DNA of 64,000 bases, taken from contig NZ_JARGDO010000015.1 of assembly GCF_029211185.1 (NCBI RefSeq), forward strand, positions 1 through 64,000, given 5' to 3'. Positions 1 to 6,269 of the stretch are shown piece after piece. Source of the DNA: Tessaracoccus caeni (GTDB lineage: Bacteria > Actinomycetota > Actinomycetes > Propionibacteriales > Propionibacteriaceae). Numbering within the stretch: position 1 is the stretch's first letter; each line of letters starts with the position of its first letter. The translations under genes and the position numbers were made by a program. The notes beneath the pieces were generated by a model. That model saw only the letters and a list, made by a program, of their open reading frames with translations. It did not search any database and was not told the origin of the DNA.

Positions 1-408
1 TGGTGGCCTGCTGGTCACGGGGAGAGCGAAGGGTCCCAAACAACCAAGTCTGTTACACGTGCTTATAGCAACAATCCGCGCTTCTGCGCATGCTCTCCAC
101 CACCAAGCTCGAAAACGGGCTCCCAGGAGGGGCCCCAAGGCTGACTACCGGGGTTCGACCGTGACCAAGCACTACCACCATGAACCCGACCCCCCGCCCA
201 ACGCAACCCCTCCCGCCACATCTTCTGCTCCCAGGCAGGGGCCCCTCCAGGGCCCCTGGGAAGCTCGAAAAGAGCGCGACCATGCGTGGGGACGTGTGGT
301 CGGGTTCCTGCGGATTCTCGCGCTGGCTCTCCTCGAGGCTCGGCCGCAGACGGCCTCGCACCTCGAAGAGCGTAGGTGGGATGCACCTCGAAGAGCGTGG
401 GTGGGCGG
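1..408. other. Intergenic or undetermined left edge
   Basis: No reading frame here has a recognisable domain or a convincing ribosome binding site; the several short overlapping frames on both strands look like the usual spurious open frames of GC-rich DNA. The stretch holds a GGGGCCC/GGGCCCC hairpin near 238-256 and the short direct repeat listed separately. It may be the downstream flank of a gene left of the window. Confidence 0.5.
358..406. repeat. Two-copy direct repeat, 25-bp period
   Basis: Two copies of GCACCTCGAAGAGCGT followed by RGGTGGG begin at 358 and 383. They lie just past the end of the DsbA-family gene. Function unknown; could be a small tandem duplication. Confidence 0.6.
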
Positions 409-1125
409 CTAGCAGCCCTCGGGACCGCAGGCCTCTCCTTCTCCGCCGACGTCGATCAGCTTCGGCCGCTGGTCAGCGAGCGCTCGTTCCAGCACCTGGG
501 TGAAGACCTCCGACGGTTGGGCCCCGGAGACCCCGTAGGCGTTGTTCACCACGAAGAACGGCACCCCGCGCACACCGATGGTCAGGCCATCCTGCACGTC
601 CGCGTCGACGGCGGCGTCCAGTTCGACGGAGTCGAGCGCTGCCCGCACCGTCGTCTCCTCCAGTCCGGCTTCGGCGCTCAGCGCCACCAAGGTGTCCACG
701 TCGCCGATATCGGCGCCGTTCTCGAAGTGGGCGGAGAACAGCGCCTCCTCCAGCGCGTCGGTCCGACCGCCACCATCGGCCTGATCGGCGCGCTTGGCGG
801 CCTGCAGCACGCGATGGGCGCGCCGGGAGTTGGCCACGACGAGCCGGCCGAAGTCGTAGGCCAGGCCCTCGCCCTCAGCCTGCTGCCCCACGTAGCCGAT
901 CATCTCCTGGATGTTCTCTCGCGGAATGCCCTTGGCGGCGACGAGGTAGTCCACCTCGCTGCCGTCGTAGTGCTCGGGCAGCGTCGGGTCGAGCTGATAG
1001 CTGCGCCAGGTCACTCGCACCTGATCTCGTTCGGGAAAGGCGGCCAGCGCCTTCTCGAAGCGCCGCTTCCCGATGAAACACCAGGGACAGGCGATGTCGG
1101 ACCAGATCTGGACGTCGATGCTCAT
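409..1125 (-). CDS. DsbA family oxidoreductase, FrnE-like
   Basis: Thioredoxin-fold protein of the DsbA/FrnE family (about 238 aa), probably a cytoplasmic thiol-disulfide oxidoreductase. The N-terminus runs from a beta strand into the redox motif CPWC, followed by FIGKRRFEKAL, the classic FrnE active-site helix. The long helical insertion and the cis-proline motif GVRGVPFFVVN near residue 190 complete the fold. The C-terminus carries an extra CGPEGC pair of cysteines, which can form a second redox pair. I placed the start at the ATG at 1125; an in-frame TTG at 1137 is possible. There is no signal peptide. It is divergent from the Y RNA/rsr unit, and a 20-bp palindrome in the shared upstream region could control both directions. 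Family assignment is firm; substrate is unknown. Confidence 0.9.
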   Translation of the reverse strand: MSIDVQIWSDIACPWCFIGKRRFEKALAAFPERDQVRVTWRSYQLDPTLPEHYDGSEVDYLVAAKGIPRENIQEMIGYVGQQAEGEGLAYDFGRLVVANSRRAHRVLQAAKRADQADGGGRTDALEEALFSAHFENGADIGDVDTLVALSAEAGLEETTVRAALDSVELDAAVDADVQDGLTIGVRGVPFFVVNNAYGVSGAQPSEVFTQVLERALADQRPKLIDVGGEGEACGPEGC

Positions 1126-1161
1126 GTCCAGATTCAACCACCACCCGCAAACCCGGCCGGC

Positions 1162-1190
1162 TTGACAAAGGTGTGTAGTGCACTACACAC
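1162..1190 (+). promoter_or_regulatory. Promoter with 20-bp perfect palindrome
   Basis: A consensus -35 TTGACA at 1162-1167 is followed 16 bases later by TACACA at 1184-1189, which would start transcription near 1196-1199, the first base of the predicted Y RNA stem. The perfect palindrome GTGTGTAGTGCACTACACAC (1171-1190) fills the spacer and covers the -10, as a repressor operator would. A TetR-, MarR- or GntR-type regulator is plausible; none is encoded next to it. Confidence 0.6.
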
Positions 1191-1198
1191 TAGTGACA

Positions 1199-1329
1199 GC
1201 TAGGCGGGCCGAAGACGATCGGTTAACTTCTAACTTGCGGGTCCGGGGTTCGAGCCCCCGCTGATTAATCAGTAGCTCAGTTGGTAGAGCAGCAACCAAT
1301 CCCGGTTGTCACACACCTGCCCGCCTAGC
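1199..1329 (+). ncRNA. Y RNA (YrlA-like) with permuted tRNA-like domain
   Basis: A predicted Ro-binding Y RNA directly upstream of rsr. An 11-bp perfect stem joins 1199-1209 to 1319-1329. The 5' internal-loop side reads CGAAG after GGGC, matching the CCGAAG signature of the Ro60-binding stem in animal and bacterial Y RNAs. A second stem pairs 1214-1222 with 1302-1310 (9 bp, two G-U). The distal part resembles a tRNA in permuted order: T-arm 1244-1260 with loop TTCGAGC, a palindromic acceptor-like hairpin CTGATTAATCAG (1261-1272), then a D-arm GCTC-AGTTGGTA-GAGC (1275-1290). TTGC 1235-1238 can pair with GCAA 1292-1295 like an anticodon stem. This is the architecture reported for bacterial YrlA RNAs, where the Y stem leads into a tRNA mimic. 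It is not a normal tRNA because the halves are in reverse order and there is no CCA end. Confidence 0.85.
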
Positions 1330-1472
1330 CCCATGAAGCGAGGGGGCGGGCCGGAGTCGATCGGTTACCTCTGCATAGGGCCGGTCCAGACAGGACAGGA
1401 CACCCGGTTGGCACGACACGCCCGCCCCCGCCCCCGCCTCGTGGCTCACGGACATCGGAAGGAGGAAGAGGA

Positions 1473-3056
1473 ATGGACATTTTGCGCACCTTGGGGTTGC
1501 GTCGCACGCCACAGAACGAGGCGGCGAACCCGAAGCAGGTCGCGAACTCGGCGGGTGGCTACACCTTCATGATCGACGACGCAGCCAGGCTGCGCCGGTT
1601 CCTCACCCTGGGTGTCGACGGCGGCACCTATTACGCCTCCGACCATGCCCTCGCTCTCGACAACGCCGCGGTGCTCACGCGCATGGCAGCCGACGATCCT
1701 GAGGGTCTCGTCGCTACCATCGTCGAGGTCTCGACGAGCGGCGCCGCACCCAAGCAGAACCCGGCCCTGTTCGCTCTGGCCTACGCGGCCTCGGTGCCGG
1801 AGTCGGCTCCGGCCGCGCTGGCGGCCCTGCCTCAGGTGGCGCGCACCGGCACGCACCTGTTCCTTTTCGCCGGCTACGTCGAGCAGTTCCGCGGTTGGGG
1901 TCGCGGACTGCGTCGCGCGGTGGCCGGCTGGTACACGTCGAAGGACGTCGATCAGCTCGCCTACCAGCTGGCGAAGTACCGCCAGCGCGAGGGCTGGTCG
2001 CACCGCGACTTGCTGCGGCTGTCCCACCCGCAGGCATCCGCGCCGACGATGCGGGACATCTTCGAGTGGGTGGTGCGCGGCACCGTCGGCGCCGAGATCC
2101 CGCGGCTCATCCAGGGTTTCACCGCCGCACAGCAGGCCACCGACGCAACCACCTGGACGCGACTCGTGCGCGAATACGGATTGTCCTGGGAGATGCTGCC
2201 CGACGCGGCGCTCGCCGAGCGTGCCGTCTGGGACGCCCTGCTCGACGCCGGTCTCCCGCAGACGGCGTTGCTGCGTCAGCTCCCCCGGCTCACCCGACTG
2301 GGCTTGCTGCCGGAGATGGGCGGACGCACCGCCGAGGTGACGGCTCAGCTGGTCGACGCCGAGCGTCTGCGGCGAGCGCGCGTGCACCCGGTCAACGTGC
2401 TGGTGGCGCAGCGCACCTATGCTGCCGGCACATCGGCGCGTGGCTCGTCCTCCTGGGAGCCCACCCAGAAGGTGGCCGACGCATTGGATGCGGCGTTCTA
2501 CGCGGCCTTCGGCGCCGTGCGTCCGTCGGGGAAGCGCACGCTGCTGGCGGTGGATGTGTCGGGGTCGATGGGGGCGCCGATCTCGGGCATGCCGATCACC
2601 GCCCGCGAAGCATCGGCGGCACTGGCCTTGGTGCAGCTGGCCACGGAGCCGTCGTCGATGGCGGTGGGCTTTGGGGCCGGCCTCGCCTGGGGAACGAAGC
2701 TGAAGACGCTGGCGATCTCGCCCCGGAAGCGTCTCGACGATGCGCTGCGGGTGATCGACGCGATGCCGTTCGGCGGCACCGACTGCTCCCTGCCCATGCT
2801 GTACGCGGCTGAGAAGGGAATCGAGGTGGACACCTTCGTGGTCTACACCGACAACGAGACCTGGGCCGGCAAGGTGCACCCGCACCAAGCGCTGCGCGCT
2901 TACCGCGAGCAGACCGGGATCCCGGCCAAGCTCGTCGTCGTGGGCATGACGGCCACCGCCTTCAGCATCGCCGACCCCGACGACGCAGGCATGCTCGACG
3001 TCGCCGGCTTCGACGCAGCCGTGCCCACCCTGATCGCGGACTTCGCCCGTGACTGA
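1473..3056 (+). CDS. rsr: Rsr, bacterial Ro60 orthologue (TROVE domain)
   Basis: A 527-aa TROVE-domain protein, the bacterial orthologue of the Ro60 autoantigen. It should form the HEAT-like ring that binds Y RNA on its outside and misfolded RNA ends in its pore, acting in RNA quality control with exoribonucleases. The first roughly 340 residues are the helical TROVE ring, with typical stretches such as GGYTFMIDD and RRAVAGWY. The C-terminal domain is von Willebrand A-like, with MIDAS motif DVSGSMG near residue 360 and a later GGTDCSLPM. The length matches the family. The ATG is preceded by AAGGAGG at a good distance. The predicted Y RNA lies 144 bp upstream on the same strand, and the next gene overlaps the 3' end by 8 bp. 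No RtcA/RtcB ligase is present, unlike the enterobacterial locus. Confidence 0.95.
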   Translation: MDILRTLGLRRTPQNEAANPKQVANSAGGYTFMIDDAARLRRFLTLGVDGGTYYASDHALALDNAAVLTRMAADDPEGLVATIVEVSTSGAAPKQNPALFALAYAASVPESAPAALAALPQVARTGTHLFLFAGYVEQFRGWGRGLRRAVAGWYTSKDVDQLAYQLAKYRQREGWSHRDLLRLSHPQASAPTMRDIFEWVVRGTVGAEIPRLIQGFTAAQQATDATTWTRLVREYGLSWEMLPDAALAERAVWDALLDAGLPQTALLRQLPRLTRLGLLPEMGGRTAEVTAQLVDAERLRRARVHPVNVLVAQRTYAAGTSARGSSSWEPTQKVADALDAAFYAAFGAVRPSGKRTLLAVDVSGSMGAPISGMPITAREASAALALVQLATEPSSMAVGFGAGLAWGTKLKTLAISPRKRLDDALRVIDAMPFGGTDCSLPMLYAAEKGIEVDTFVVYTDNETWAGKVHPHQALRAYREQTGIPAKLVVVGMTATAFSIADPDDAGMLDVAGFDAAVPTLIADFARD

Positions 3057-3336
3057 GCGGCCCAGCGCAGGCGGCACCCCTCAGCGGGGTGCCGCCTCGC
3101 GTCGTCGTGGGGGCGTCTCCGACGCCCGACTCGCCCGCGCGAGGGAGCTGCATCGCAAGGCCGCGGAGGCCGAAGAACTGGCCGCCCGTCTCCGCGCGGA
3201 ACGCGATTCCCTGATCAAACGCCTGCGCGCCGAGGATCCGGAGAAATGGTCGTACGGTTCGCTCGCCGCCGGCATCGGCTGCAGCCGCGAACTCGTCGCC
3301 CTGGTCATCAAGCGCAAACCCGCTCGCCCGAGCTGA
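3049..3336 (+). CDS. Small coiled-coil/helix-turn-helix protein
   Basis: A 95-aa basic protein whose GTG start overlaps the end of rsr by 8 bp, so it is probably translationally coupled. Residues 1-25 are disordered and rich in Arg and Gly. Residues 26-65 are a charged helix of heptad character (RARELHRKAAEAEELAARL). Residues 68-90 (WSYGSLAAGIGCSRELVALV) look like a helix-turn-helix. I know no named family for it. Its coupling to rsr suggests a partner or regulator of the Ro/Y RNA unit; direct DNA or RNA binding is inference. Confidence 0.75.
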   Translation: MTERPSAGGTPQRGAASRRRGGVSDARLARARELHRKAAEAEELAARLRAERDSLIKRLRAEDPEKWSYGSLAAGIGCSRELVALVIKRKPARPS

Positions 3337-3366
3337 GCCACAAGAGCTCGACCGGACTGTCATTGA

Positions 3367-3383
3367 CGACGCTTCGGGCGTCG
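3367..3383 (+). other. Hairpin between HTH gene and protease operon
   Basis: CGACGC (3367-3372) and GCGTCG (3378-3383) flank the loop TTCGG. No T-run follows, so it may be a weak terminator, an operator or part of a leader. Confidence 0.35.
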
Positions 3384-3417
3384 AAGACTCTTGCTTCGCG
3401 GTACCCGAAGGAGGATA

Positions 3418-3465
3418 GTGACGCTCACAAGCACAGCTGCCTGCTGCGGAAGGGGTCCGCAATGA
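3418..3465 (+). CDS. Possible 15-residue leader peptide
   Basis: A GTG start preceded by a strong AAGGAGG opens a 15-codon frame reading VTLTSTAACCGRGPQ. Its TGA overlaps the ATG of the protease gene (ATGA), so translation of the large protein may be coupled to it. The protease ATG itself has only a weaker AAGGGG. It could equally be a chance frame. Confidence 0.35.
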   Translation: MTLTSTAACCGRGPQ

Positions 3466-6269
3466 ACGGTGTTGACGTCCTCAGGCTACTGTTGGCCGCC
3501 CGCGACCCGGATGTAGAGATCACGGGGCTCGACCTCACGACGCTGCGTTTCGTGGTCGAGTTTCAGACGGTCGTCGACGTCGATGCCGTCAAGGGCCAGA
3601 TCGCCGAGCTCCTTGAGACTGAGCCCGATTCCTTCCAGTTCTACCCGTTGTTCGACGAAACACCCAGCCCCGGCGACCAGCCCCAAGGGCCGTCCGACGG
3701 CGAGTTCGGCGAGTTCTACGTCCTGCAGTTCCCCGGGCTGGAGCGCACCGTCGGCAACGAGATGCTCTTCGCGATGGCCTACGAACTGGCCGACGCCCTC
3801 GGCGCGGTCACCGTCGAACCGGACCTCGGCACTCAGATCTACGTCGAGCCACTCCCGCCGGACGCGGCACCGGAGGGCGTCATCGCTCGTGCCTTCGCGG
3901 GCACCTGCTTCGTGGAGGGGGACGCTCCGACCGACAAGCTGTGGGCGCTCGAGCGAGCGGGCGTGCTTGCGGCGTGGGCACAGTCACCTGCCCGCGGGGC
4001 CGGCGTCACCATCGCACAACCAGACACTGGCGTGACGCACCACGTCGAGCTGTCCGACGTCGTGCAACGCGACGGCCTCAACGTCCTCACCGACACTCCC
4101 GACGCCGCCGATCCCATGGGCACCAGCGGTTTCCCCGGACACGGCACGGCGACGGCGAGCGTCGCCGTCAGCGGCCCCGGGGGCGACGTGAAGGGCTCCG
4201 CGCCCGGCGCGACGCTCATCCCCATCCGCGCCATTGAGTCCGTCGTCCTCCTCTTCAACGGCTCCGCGATCGCGAAGGCCATCGATCACGCCCGGCTCCG
4301 CCGCGCCAACGTCATCACCATGAGCCTCGGCGGAACGCCGAGCCGGGCGATGCGGCGCGCCATCGACCGCGCCATCGGCGAGGGCATCATCGTGTTGGCG
4401 GCCGCAGGCAACTGCGTGCGGCTCGTCGTGTACCCGGCCCGGTACGACGAGGTGATCGCGGTGGCCGGCAGCAACGTGCACGACCTGCCATGGCAGGGAT
4501 CCTGTCGCGGTGCCCGCGTCGACATCACGGCTCCCGGAGAGAACGTCTGGCGCGCCATCGCGGGGCCTTCGGGGGCGGACATCGGCGGCGGCCAGGGCAC
4601 CTCCTTCGCCGTCGCCCTCACGGCGGGCACCGCCGCCCTGTGGCTCTCCCATCACGGGATCGACGCGGTCCACGACGCCGCGGCCCGTCGCGGGATCACC
4701 GTGCAAGAGCTCTTCCGCGAGTTCCTCGTCGCGACCGCCCGCACCCCCGCGAACTGGGACACGTCCGACTTCGGGCAGGGCATCGTCGACGCCGGGGCTC
4801 TTCTCGCCCGGCCGCTCAACAGTCCGCCCCCGATCCAGCTGGAGGCCGCTCCGGGTGCCAGCGCTCCCGACACGCTCGAGCTGCTCGCCGAGGCCTGGGG
4901 ACCGGCCGACGCCGTCCGGCTCGGCGACGTCGCCACCGATCCCCGGTTCCAACTGGAACTCAGCGCGCTGGCACTGGAGGACGCCCGCGTCGGTGCCGCG
5001 GAGCCGGGTGGAGCCGAGTCGAGCATGACCAGGAACGGCATCAGCCCGCAGCTGGCCGCCGCGATCGGCCCGACGGCGCCGCCTCCTGGCGGTCACGTGC
5101 GGCCGACGGAGCGCACCGAGCCGGCCCACGCCGCCGACCCGGTCGTCATCGTCGCCGCCCGCGCGGGCGGGTTCGAGTCGACGGCGGACATCTCGCCCGA
5201 GGCGGCGCGGGACCTGCTCGCGGCCAACCGGGACGCCCCGATCGACGCGATCAACGCGCGGCTCAAGAGTGTGCGCGCGTCGCTCGCCAAGACTGAGCGT
5301 GCCGCGCAACTAAAGCCTCTGCACGATCAGTTGTTGCGCGATACCCGACGCGTCGTGAAGCGACTGAGCGCAGGCAAGCTCATCCCCGACGACATCGACG
5401 CGCAGGTCGGGCTCGAGGCGCTCGTGCAGCTCGAGGGACGGCCAGCGCTGCGGATGACCGACGACGTCGTCGACCCCGACGATCCCGGCCTCGGCGAATG
5501 GGCCGGCGCCGTCCTCCTCCAGGAGGCCCGACTCCGCGGGATTCAGGGCTCGATCGGCCGGATCGATACCGCCGCCGGGATCCACGCCGGAACGGGGTTC
5601 GTGGTCGGCGACGGCCTCATCATGACCAACCGCCACGTCCTGGAGGCGCTCGCGTTCCCGGCACCGCGCCGCGTCCAGCCGTCGATGTGGGTGCTCCACG
5701 GCCGGCCGACCATCAACTTCTCCGCCTCCGCGAAGGACCCGTCGCAGAGCTTCGAGATCGTCGAGGTGGCGTTCAGCGGTCCGAACCCGGCGGACGTCGT
5801 CGACTACCGCAACCTCGACCTCGCGCTCCTCCGAATCGCGAAGACCAACGCCCACGGCGAGGCACCACCGCCCCTGCGGCTCTCCGGCAAGCCCGCCGGC
5901 GGGGGCGCGAAGCTGTTCGTGATCGGGTACCCGGCGATGCCCACCGCCCTCCCCTCGGACGAGGAGGGACGACGGCGGATGGACGTCATCCGGCGCCTGG
6001 GTGAGATCTACGCAACGACGTTCGGCGTGCGCTACCTCAGCCCGGGGCTCGTGATGCAGACGCCGACGCAGTTCCGTCCCGACGACCCCAACCCGCGCGT
6101 GTTCACGCACGACGCCACGTCGCTCGGCGGCAACAGCGGATCCTGCGTCCTCTCCTTCGACGACAACCTCGATGTCGCCGGCCTCCACTTCGCGGGCGAC
6201 TGGCTGCGCGCGAACTTCGCCCACGCGATCGACAGGGTTCGCGGCGAGATCGCGGACTTCCTGCGATGA
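3462..6269 (+). CDS. Dual protease: subtilisin (S8) plus trypsin-like domain
   Basis: A 935-aa protein with two serine protease domains and no signal peptide or membrane segment, so it should act in the cytoplasm. Residues 1-130 are an N-terminal region of unknown fold. The subtilisin domain spans about 160-440, with Asp188 (QPDTGV), His227 (GHGTA), the oxyanion Asn in AAAGNC and Ser381 (GTSFAVAL). A helical linker follows (about 500-690). The C-terminal chymotrypsin-like domain has His725 (TNRHV), Asp786 (NLDLALL) and Ser892 (GGNSGS). Both triads look intact. The ATG at 3462 was chosen because it follows AAGGGG and overlaps the leader frame. The gene is the first of three linked by ATGA overlaps with a second trypsin-like protease and a STAND NTPase. 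Two proteases in one chain suggest either a cleavage cascade or self-activation; targets are unknown. Confidence 0.9.
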   Translation: MNGVDVLRLLLAARDPDVEITGLDLTTLRFVVEFQTVVDVDAVKGQIAELLETEPDSFQFYPLFDETPSPGDQPQGPSDGEFGEFYVLQFPGLERTVGNEMLFAMAYELADALGAVTVEPDLGTQIYVEPLPPDAAPEGVIARAFAGTCFVEGDAPTDKLWALERAGVLAAWAQSPARGAGVTIAQPDTGVTHHVELSDVVQRDGLNVLTDTPDAADPMGTSGFPGHGTATASVAVSGPGGDVKGSAPGATLIPIRAIESVVLLFNGSAIAKAIDHARLRRANVITMSLGGTPSRAMRRAIDRAIGEGIIVLAAAGNCVRLVVYPARYDEVIAVAGSNVHDLPWQGSCRGARVDITAPGENVWRAIAGPSGADIGGGQGTSFAVALTAGTAALWLSHHGIDAVHDAAARRGITVQELFREFLVATARTPANWDTSDFGQGIVDAGALLARPLNSPPPIQLEAAPGASAPDTLELLAEAWGPADAVRLGDVATDPRFQLELSALALEDARVGAAEPGGAESSMTRNGISPQLAAAIGPTAPPPGGHVRPTERTEPAHAADPVVIVAARAGGFESTADISPEAARDLLAANRDAPIDAINARLKSVRASLAKTERAAQLKPLHDQLLRDTRRVVKRLSAGKLIPDDIDAQVGLEALVQLEGRPALRMTDDVVDPDDPGLGEWAGAVLLQEARLRGIQGSIGRIDTAAGIHAGTGFVVGDGLIMTNRHVLEALAFPAPRRVQPSMWVLHGRPTINFSASAKDPSQSFEIVEVAFSGPNPADVVDYRNLDLALLRIAKTNAHGEAPPPLRLSGKPAGGGAKLFVIGYPAMPTALPSDEEGRRRMDVIRRLGEIYATTFGVRYLSPGLVMQTPTQFRPDDPNPRVFTHDATSLGGNSGSCVLSFDDNLDVAGLHFAGDWLRANFAHAIDRVRGEIADFLR

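Follow-up and report, generated by a model that had tools for sequence, protein, structure and literature searches.

Y RNAs are little-understood partners of Ro60, a human autoantigen, and the structure of one bacterial member, Salmonella YrlA, is available as PDB 6CU1. A few published systems bear directly on the locus considered here, which carries rsr, the gene for the bacterial Ro60 orthologue, in Tessaracoccus caeni. The circular permutation of YrlA relative to tRNA has already been published (PMC11472068). In Salmonella, two Y RNAs accompany one rsr in the operon rsr-yrlB-yrlA-rtcB-rtcA (PMC9879122), and in the RYPER of Deinococcus radiodurans the Y RNA has an Rsr-binding lower stem and a separate head (PMC4726728). 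According to work on these two bacteria, the basal stem is the part that Rsr binds, and PNPase is linked to Rsr by YrlA or a Y RNA. Beyond bacteria, a UUAUC motif is conserved in vertebrate Y RNAs and in nematode stem-bulge RNAs (sbRNAs), and the same review calls sbRNAs homologous to Y RNAs (PMC4726728).

The stretch analyzed, referred to as the window, comprises 64,000 nucleotides (NZ_JARGDO010000015.1, positions 1 to 64,000). Here, an RNA gene named Y1 (1199..1329; the genes and RNA elements below are all on the forward strand) precedes rsr (1473..3056), and the original prediction, made from the letters of the DNA, was that of a YrlA-type RNA with a permuted tRNA mimic. The best reading is still that of a YrlA-type Y RNA adjacent to rsr: there is an Rfam match, the arms stand in the permuted order, the stems change in a compensatory manner, and the RNA tracks rsr across genomes. 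The RNA type and its permutation are known, and Y1 is one more YrlA.

Compared with the YrlA family (RF02553), Y1 has the same succession of T-arm, acceptor-like arm and D-arm, a basal Y stem, and a gene close to rsr, but it scores below the gathering score and its acceptor hairpin has just 4 bp. As for the Salmonella operon, the window also has two Y RNAs per rsr; unlike in Salmonella, they precede rsr, the candidate for control is a small helix-turn-helix (HTH)-like protein together with a palindrome, and the RtcB gene is on a different contig. The sole RtcB match in the genome is G000:C1:30551-31669, with rsr on contig C6, and because RtcB is elsewhere the locus is not a Salmonella-type repair operon; an RtcR-type operon was thus not found, in a search that covered RtcB. 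The RtcB gene was present in all 9 rsr-positive congeners tested and in 2 of the 5 rsr-negative ones, which is little informative. With RYPER the locus shares an orthologous Rsr and a lower stem with a separate head, and by analogy PNPase tethering might operate here too.

The permuted head of Y1 and its comparative support

Y1 is closed by an outer stem of 10 bp (5' strand 1200..1209, 3' strand 1319..1328), which leads into the internal-loop signature CCGAAG (1209-1214) and then into an inner stem, paired at 9 of 9 positions in the comparative fold (1214..1222 with 1302..1310). This basal double stem with its internal loop is the predicted Rsr-binding module. Farther in, UUGC (1235..1238) pairs with GCAA (1292-1295), a pairing taken from the fold computation alone; it is the counterpart of the 4-bp closing stem in the Rfam YrlA model and, at the foot of the head, a possible remnant of the anticodon stem. 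The head itself (1244-1290) is made, in permuted order, of a T-arm of 5 bp with the loop UUCGAGC (1244..1260), a 4-bp acceptor-like hairpin, CTGATTAATCAG, that abuts the T-stem directly (1261..1272), the equivalent of U8-A9 (UA, TA in the DNA; 1273-1274), and a D-arm (1275-1290). The T- and D-arms are each recovered by Rfam, by a parse of relatives, by folding and by alignment, and Y1 as a whole by Rfam, a descriptor scan, the parse, and the covariance model R1 described below. From the end of Y1 to the start of rsr there are 143 nt. The permuted order, the two closing stems and the CCGAAG signature were all located where the original prediction had placed them.

In Rfam 15, YrlA matches 1236-1295 (E 2.1e-6, 40.1 bits) and is the sole significant match in 1-6000. 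A covariance search had been proposed as a check on the first claim; it returned the expected family, at a score that stays below the gathering one. The situation is the same in other loci: six of the seven that were run gave nine YrlA rows, with 33.6-46.5 bits, all under the gathering score. Annotation by gathering score would overlook the YrlA-type RNAs run through Rfam, namely that of the window and those of the six other loci with matches. A mir-784 match over the palindrome (minus strand, 1150-1210; 25.9 bits, gathering 94) was taken as chance. ARAGORN calls no tRNA gene over the window, as foreseen for a tRNA scanner, and an ordinary tRNA gene in the standard arm order is absent from its output. 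Folding of 1197-1330 gives a z-score of -4.5, with 0 of 200 shuffles equally stable, and the minimum-energy fold retains the outer stem as well as all three hairpins of the head (T, acceptor, D).

The comparative evidence comes from a scan of rsr relatives in 80 named loci, to which searches of congeneric genomes added further ones. A unit descriptor requiring at least 6 outer and at least 5 inner pairs yielded 146 units in 61 loci; once filters had been applied and identical copies discarded, 116 were left, 61 of class A (T- and D-arm), 27 of class B (T-arm, no D-arm recognized), and 28 of class C (neither). Removing one spurious L016 unit gave the 115 of a hairpin survey. For the parse, 62 class A units were examined (the 61 and one of L013), and 60, Y1 included, were parsed under the conditions that 4 or more of the 5 T-arm pairs and all 4 D-arm pairs be formed. 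Pairing in the acceptor-like arm played no part in acceptance; of the 359 cells of this arm, 331 are paired, compared with 55% for shuffled partners (maximum 66% of 500). All T-stems are paired (82% with shuffled partners), and the D-stem has a single variable pair (CG 56, UA 4); pairing in these two stems is less telling because the parse demanded it. The U8A9 position reads UA in 57 units and UG in 3. A hairpin set against the T-stem with no spacer had been singled out as notable in Y1; it is the usual arrangement in relatives, where the absence of a spacer was assumed by the parse and borne out by the pairing obtained.

The alignment, made of 49 of the 61 class A units, contains double changes in 187 cells, versus 51.5 when shuffled, and its covariation score is 0.421, compared with 0.146 for shuffled and 0.048-0.095 for slid partners. 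Double changes occur in 8 of 11 pairs of the outer stem and in 5 of 9 pairs of the inner stem. In the T helix, where there was no selection on pairing among these 49 units, two pairs have 13 and 7 double changes and two are invariant. Compensatory change in relatives had been named as the test for the three stems of the head: the acceptor-like and T-stems pass it clearly, the D-stem at one pair, and the outer and inner stems add to it.

A second RNA on the same scaffold and the linkage to rsr

That a Ro60 gene lies just downstream of Y1 is confirmed by Pfam (vWA_Ro60 1.9e-63, TROVE 1.4e-48) and by the structure 2nvo of D. radiodurans Rsr, which matches the 527-aa Rsr of the window with E 5.1e-115. 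The NCBIfam Rsr model also matches, with E 3.5e-153 and 511 bits, under its cut-off of 900. This Rsr is closer to those of Micropruina (83%) and Propionicimonas (80%) than to those of its own genus (68-71%), and rsr is missing from 30 of 39 genomes of the genus; the distribution is patchy, perhaps through horizontal movement. With the Rsr protein as query, 4 of 396 genomes of the phylum gave a match, among them that of the window itself. At the level of the class, the TROVE family was matched in 54 of 394 genomes, mostly over a short part of the model, and these matches were not used for the Y RNA work.

A covariance model, R1, was built from 49 YrlA-type units, and units outside its training set reach high scores (121.7 bits in L009, 119.6 in L091, 101.4 in L007; L numbers denote loci). 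In the genus, R1 matches among the candidates scored (E <=0.001) are found in the same 9 of 39 genomes that carry rsr, 24 of 24 beside it, and the 30 rsr-less genomes gave 0 at that threshold among the candidates scored. Across 87 sources, R1 gave 193 matches with E <=0.1, of which 180 were classified; nine in tRNA arrays (L072, L075, L080, L082, L083), one weak match in L051, and three in L122, a locus not in the orientation table, were excluded. The result is that 179 of the 180 lie within 1500 nt upstream of rsr and on its strand, in 73 loci. The arrays have one unit in 13 loci, two in 32, three in 10, and four in 18, and in 64 of the 73 loci at least one unit with both T- and D-arm is upstream of rsr.

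These 179 units fall into crude classes: 83 of class A, 47 of class B, 45 of class C, and 4 that have a D-arm and no T-arm. The 47 class B units, chosen beforehand on at least four T-stem pairs, have the T-loop UUCRANN, and 30 of them have five T-stem pairs. In 46 of 47, a permissive search without control places a hairpin at most 2 nt after the T-stem, and 34 of 47 contain UUAYCUGG or a near variant. Some of them (one each of L013, L042, and L062) resemble class A with an altered D-arm. In the Candidatus Brocadia rsr locus L074, a minimal Y-like unit of 66 nt (3566-3631) has both stems and the hairpin AUCA-CUGAAA-UGAU; R1 gives no match to it at E <=0.1.

The window itself contains a second Y RNA, Y2 (1342..1429), which the original prediction overlooked along with the palindrome and the gene after rsr. 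Recognized by R1 and the descriptor, Y2 has both stems (9 + 9 bp) and neither a T- nor a D-arm, that is, the shared stems with a head of its own and without the tRNA mimic. It was not in the R1 training set, and it matches at 1340-1431 with 57.2 bits and E 8.7e-8. Its folding z-score (-1.34) does not stand out. The sbRNA model RF01656 from nematodes, whose gathering score is 38, matches Y1 with 27.0 bits (E 0.025) and Y2 with 25.6 bits (E 0.059); these matches lend weak support, because the review cited above calls sbRNAs homologous to Y RNAs.

The palindrome and orf95 as a candidate switch

Shortly before Y1 there is a perfect 20-bp palindrome, GTGTGTAGTG/CACTACACAC, a candidate operator (1171..1190; no strand is assigned). 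When up to 3 mismatches are allowed, the 4.16-Mb genome has no other match to GTGTGTAGNNNNCTACACAC. Just before it, TTGACA (1162..1167) is a candidate -35 element, and TTGAC also precedes the palindrome in L011-L015. At the other end, orf95 (3049..3336; 95 codons) overlaps the rsr stop and is a candidate autoregulator with an HTH-like predicted structure. Y1 probably heads a short operon, Y1-Y2-rsr-orf95.

How well do the palindrome and orf95 go together? Related palindromes are found in 30 loci, the window's included, at distances that range from 2 nt inside to 45 nt before a Y unit, and orf95 relatives follow rsr directly or shortly in 30 further loci. After omission of the duplicates L030, L032, L035, and L036 and of the distant match L010, 86 loci were listed, and six with short flanks (L003, L029, L038, L043, L081, L087) are off the table. 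In the remaining 80, both elements are present in 28, the palindrome alone in 0, orf95 alone in 2, and neither in 50; the loci are related, so that the table overstates independence and a Fisher p-value computed from it should not be read literally. The near copies L034 and L037 were both counted. The two loci with orf95 alone are L019, with a degenerate copy of the palindrome, and L040, with a different palindrome 46 nt before rsr. Among those with short flanks, L003 and L029 carry the palindrome on contigs that stop at rsr or shortly beyond it, and in L043 orf95 is present with 113 nt of upstream sequence. Within the genus, 8 of the 39 genomes have orf95, and each of them also has rsr; in the one further congener with rsr, the contig stops 65 nt beyond the rsr match.

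The AlphaFold2 model of orf95 has a long helix (22-62) and two shorter ones (69-76, 80-88), with a mean predicted local distance difference test score (pLDDT) of 81.7 and block means of 80-97 over residues 21-90; the fold is perhaps a coiled coil with a helix-turn-helix. On this basis, and mainly on that of the co-occurrence, orf95 may autoregulate the operon via the palindrome. The alternative is that the two merely travel together and that orf95 is not a regulator. The kinship of the loci in the 28/0/2/50 table speaks for it, as do the weak fold matches of orf95, whose one Pfam match above a curated cut-off lies outside the HTH families. Nevertheless, the pair is seen in scattered lineages (L055 among Nocardia, L069 from Arthrobacter, L028 and L034 from Actinomyces), and both elements are absent from the other Nocardia, Mycolicibacterium, and Promicromonospora loci of the table, so that simple co-inheritance is regarded as a credible but rather doubtful explanation. 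With autoregulation as the preferred reading, orf95 and the palindrome give a concrete handle on the regulation of the locus.

In eight loci (L018, L020, L026, L027, L029, L034, L037, L046), one class A unit is upstream of the palindrome and the rest are downstream; this split of the array suggests two transcription units.

Roles of the RNAs and the setting of rsr

The setting raises several questions: (i) What is the role of several different heads on one Rsr? (ii) Do tRNA enzymes interact with half mimics and with anticodon-like loops? (iii) How is such an operon switched outside the Salmonella-type repair operon? The reading that joins the data, and that is held with high confidence, comprises a YrlA-type Y1 and Y2 on the same scaffold, with proposed Rsr binding, PNPase docking, and feedback by orf95. 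The stems around CCGRAG and UCGGUUAYC would provide the Rsr-binding site of both RNAs. The head of Y1 would dock a tRNA-binding partner, most likely PNPase by analogy with D. radiodurans and Salmonella, and Rsr would thereby pass structured or damaged RNA to it. Y2 would gate or address Rsr differently, the two RNAs acting as two addresses, and orf95 would bind the palindrome before Y1 to exert feedback control of the operon.

A number of points weigh against this reading. The Rfam score of Y1 is under the RF02553 gathering score of 69. The inner stem is absent from the minimum-energy fold, which has local hairpins instead and a computed energy of -55.9 kcal/mol, versus -47.4 for the comparative fold, a gap of 8.5 kcal/mol; the comparative fold is preferred because the inner stem has double changes, and minimum-energy folding was rejected as the sole basis for Y1, since it yields a different inner region. 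In the 49-unit alignment, the proportion of paired cells is high (97.1% of 1344 cells; 96.9% in the outer and 94.7% in the inner stem), but for the outer and inner stems it is partly so by construction, the units having been selected on these pairings, and the same holds for the T- and D-stems in the parse of the 60 units; the variety of pair types in the aligned stems is independent of that selection. Y1 is itself one of the 49 training sequences of R1, and its own R1 score is therefore not independent. In each genome, moreover, R1 scored 84 first-look candidates of hundreds to thousands, and weak copies could escape. As for the switch, a promoter scan with the sigma-70 consensus finds none at this place, Foldseek on orf95 gives a best E of 0.42 and nothing at 0.001 (HTH proteins are among the best matches), MRP-L20 is the sole Pfam match above its curated cut-off, and in the four orf95 relatives scanned HTH profiles stay under the cut-off.

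Another feature of the heads emerges from the relatives. In many units, the stretch from the inner stem to the T-arm includes a hairpin whose loop is 7 nt long. In a survey of 158 distinct regions, obtained from the 179 units by removing 12 without the anchor motif and 9 duplicates, hairpins of at least 3 bp with such a loop are found in 95, compared with 41.9 after shuffling (sd 5.2, maximum 55), the shuffles ignoring kinship among units. No enrichment is seen for loops of 3-6 and 10 nt, and a mild one for those of 8 and 9 nt (67 and 61). Of the 95 loops, 55 start with CU, while any other starting dinucleotide accounts for 4 at most. The innermost closing pair of these 55 is AU in 37, CG in 11, UA in 5, and UG in 2; 26 different triplets occur in the middle of the loop; a purine occupies residue "37" in 44 loops, and A or C occupies residue "38" in 53. 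Such a hairpin of the CUNNNRA type, present in 55 of the 158 regions, has an anticodon-loop pattern and is positioned where a permuted tRNA would carry an anticodon loop. It is found in 33 of 74 class A and 17 of 38 class C regions, and the Rfam YrlA consensus has no counterpart to it. In the window, the hairpin is formed by Y2 (CCU-CUGCAUA-GGG, CUNNN type, 1368..1380), and Y1 has the loop letters CUUCUAA without a stem. The likeness falls short of proof of mimicry, because 11 of the 55 loops carry a pyrimidine at position 37 and because of the missing stem in Y1; the presence of the hairpin in class C also weighs against mimicry. Directly after the inner stem, UUAUC is found in 79 of the 158 regions, recalling vertebrate Y RNAs and sbRNAs, and UUACC in 62, counts in which the anchor fixes the second base and restricts the others save the fifth; in contrast to the UUAUC motif, Y1 reads UUAAC and Y2 UUACC.

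Could the head be chiefly a decoy or sensor for enzymes that cut or modify tRNA, rather than a tether for PNPase? Competitive inhibition of an anticodon nuclease is named as a possibility by Hughes 2020, and the CU-starting hairpin before the T-arm in 33 of 74 class A regions fits with it. The same paper reports no detection of YrlA fragments, so that YrlA did not serve as a nuclease substrate; moreover, the window's Y1 lacks a paired CU hairpin and the pyrimidine-37 loops count here as well. A decoy is thus considered unlikely.

A more ambitious picture, offered as speculation with a small chance of being right, is that actinobacterial rsr loci hold graded tRNA imitations on one Rsr-binding scaffold, switched by a small HTH repressor and its operator. 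Class A units would be permuted tRNAs with the elbow, some completed by the anticodon-loop-like hairpin; class B would mimic the T-arm/acceptor half; and part of class C would have the anticodon-like hairpin alone or with GC hairpins. If true, the heads would steer one Rsr toward different anticodon nucleases or enzymes that handle tRNA. The accessible literature, which does not cover the key papers, yielded no account of Y RNA arrays with half mimics in actinobacteria, the CUNNNRA hairpin, or the orf95/palindrome pair, and the evidence for the novelty of these features is weak.

The structure might instead be a cis-acting 5' leader of the rsr mRNA that controls translation or stability, rather than a source of free Y RNAs acting in trans. 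Y1, Y2, and rsr are indeed arranged head to tail on one strand, a terminator scan finds none between them, and the position upstream of rsr holds for 179 of the 180 matches examined. Yet each unit has its own closing stem, several units occur in tandem, class A heads mimic tRNA, and in 8 of the 30 palindrome loci one unit is upstream of the palindrome, perhaps outside the rsr transcript. In PMC9879122 and PMC8394870, furthermore, the Salmonella Y RNA genes come after rsr and YrlA is treated as a separate RNA. A cis leader is accordingly judged quite improbable. That Y1 joins the 3' half of one decayed tRNA gene to the 5' half of another was rejected as extremely improbable: nine R1 matches do fall inside the tRNA arrays mentioned above, and at least one of them (L082 8061-8150) runs from the 3' half of one called tRNA gene into the 5' half of its neighbor, but the window has no ARAGORN-called tRNA, the internal loop and both closing stems exist and show compensatory variation, and 64 of 73 unit-bearing loci have a unit with T- and D-arm upstream of rsr.

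Returning to free Y RNAs beside rsr, a few observations concern the neighborhood of the gene. The next gene in the window (3462-6269) encodes a protein of 935 aa with a subtilase (S8) and a trypsin-like domain, and downstream of rsr in L069 there is likewise weak similarity to the subtilase part of this protein (30% over 280 aa). In 11 of 16 loci scanned (L072, L073, L075, L076, L078, L079, L080, L082, L083, L087, L090), rsr sits amid an array of tRNA genes, with 4 to 24 of them per locus. These loci belong to deltaproteobacterial or myxococcal metagenome-assembled genomes, plus one labelled Glaciihabitans and one Bradyrhizobium. In L090, a YrlA-type match is found 458 nt upstream of rsr, besides the tRNA array.
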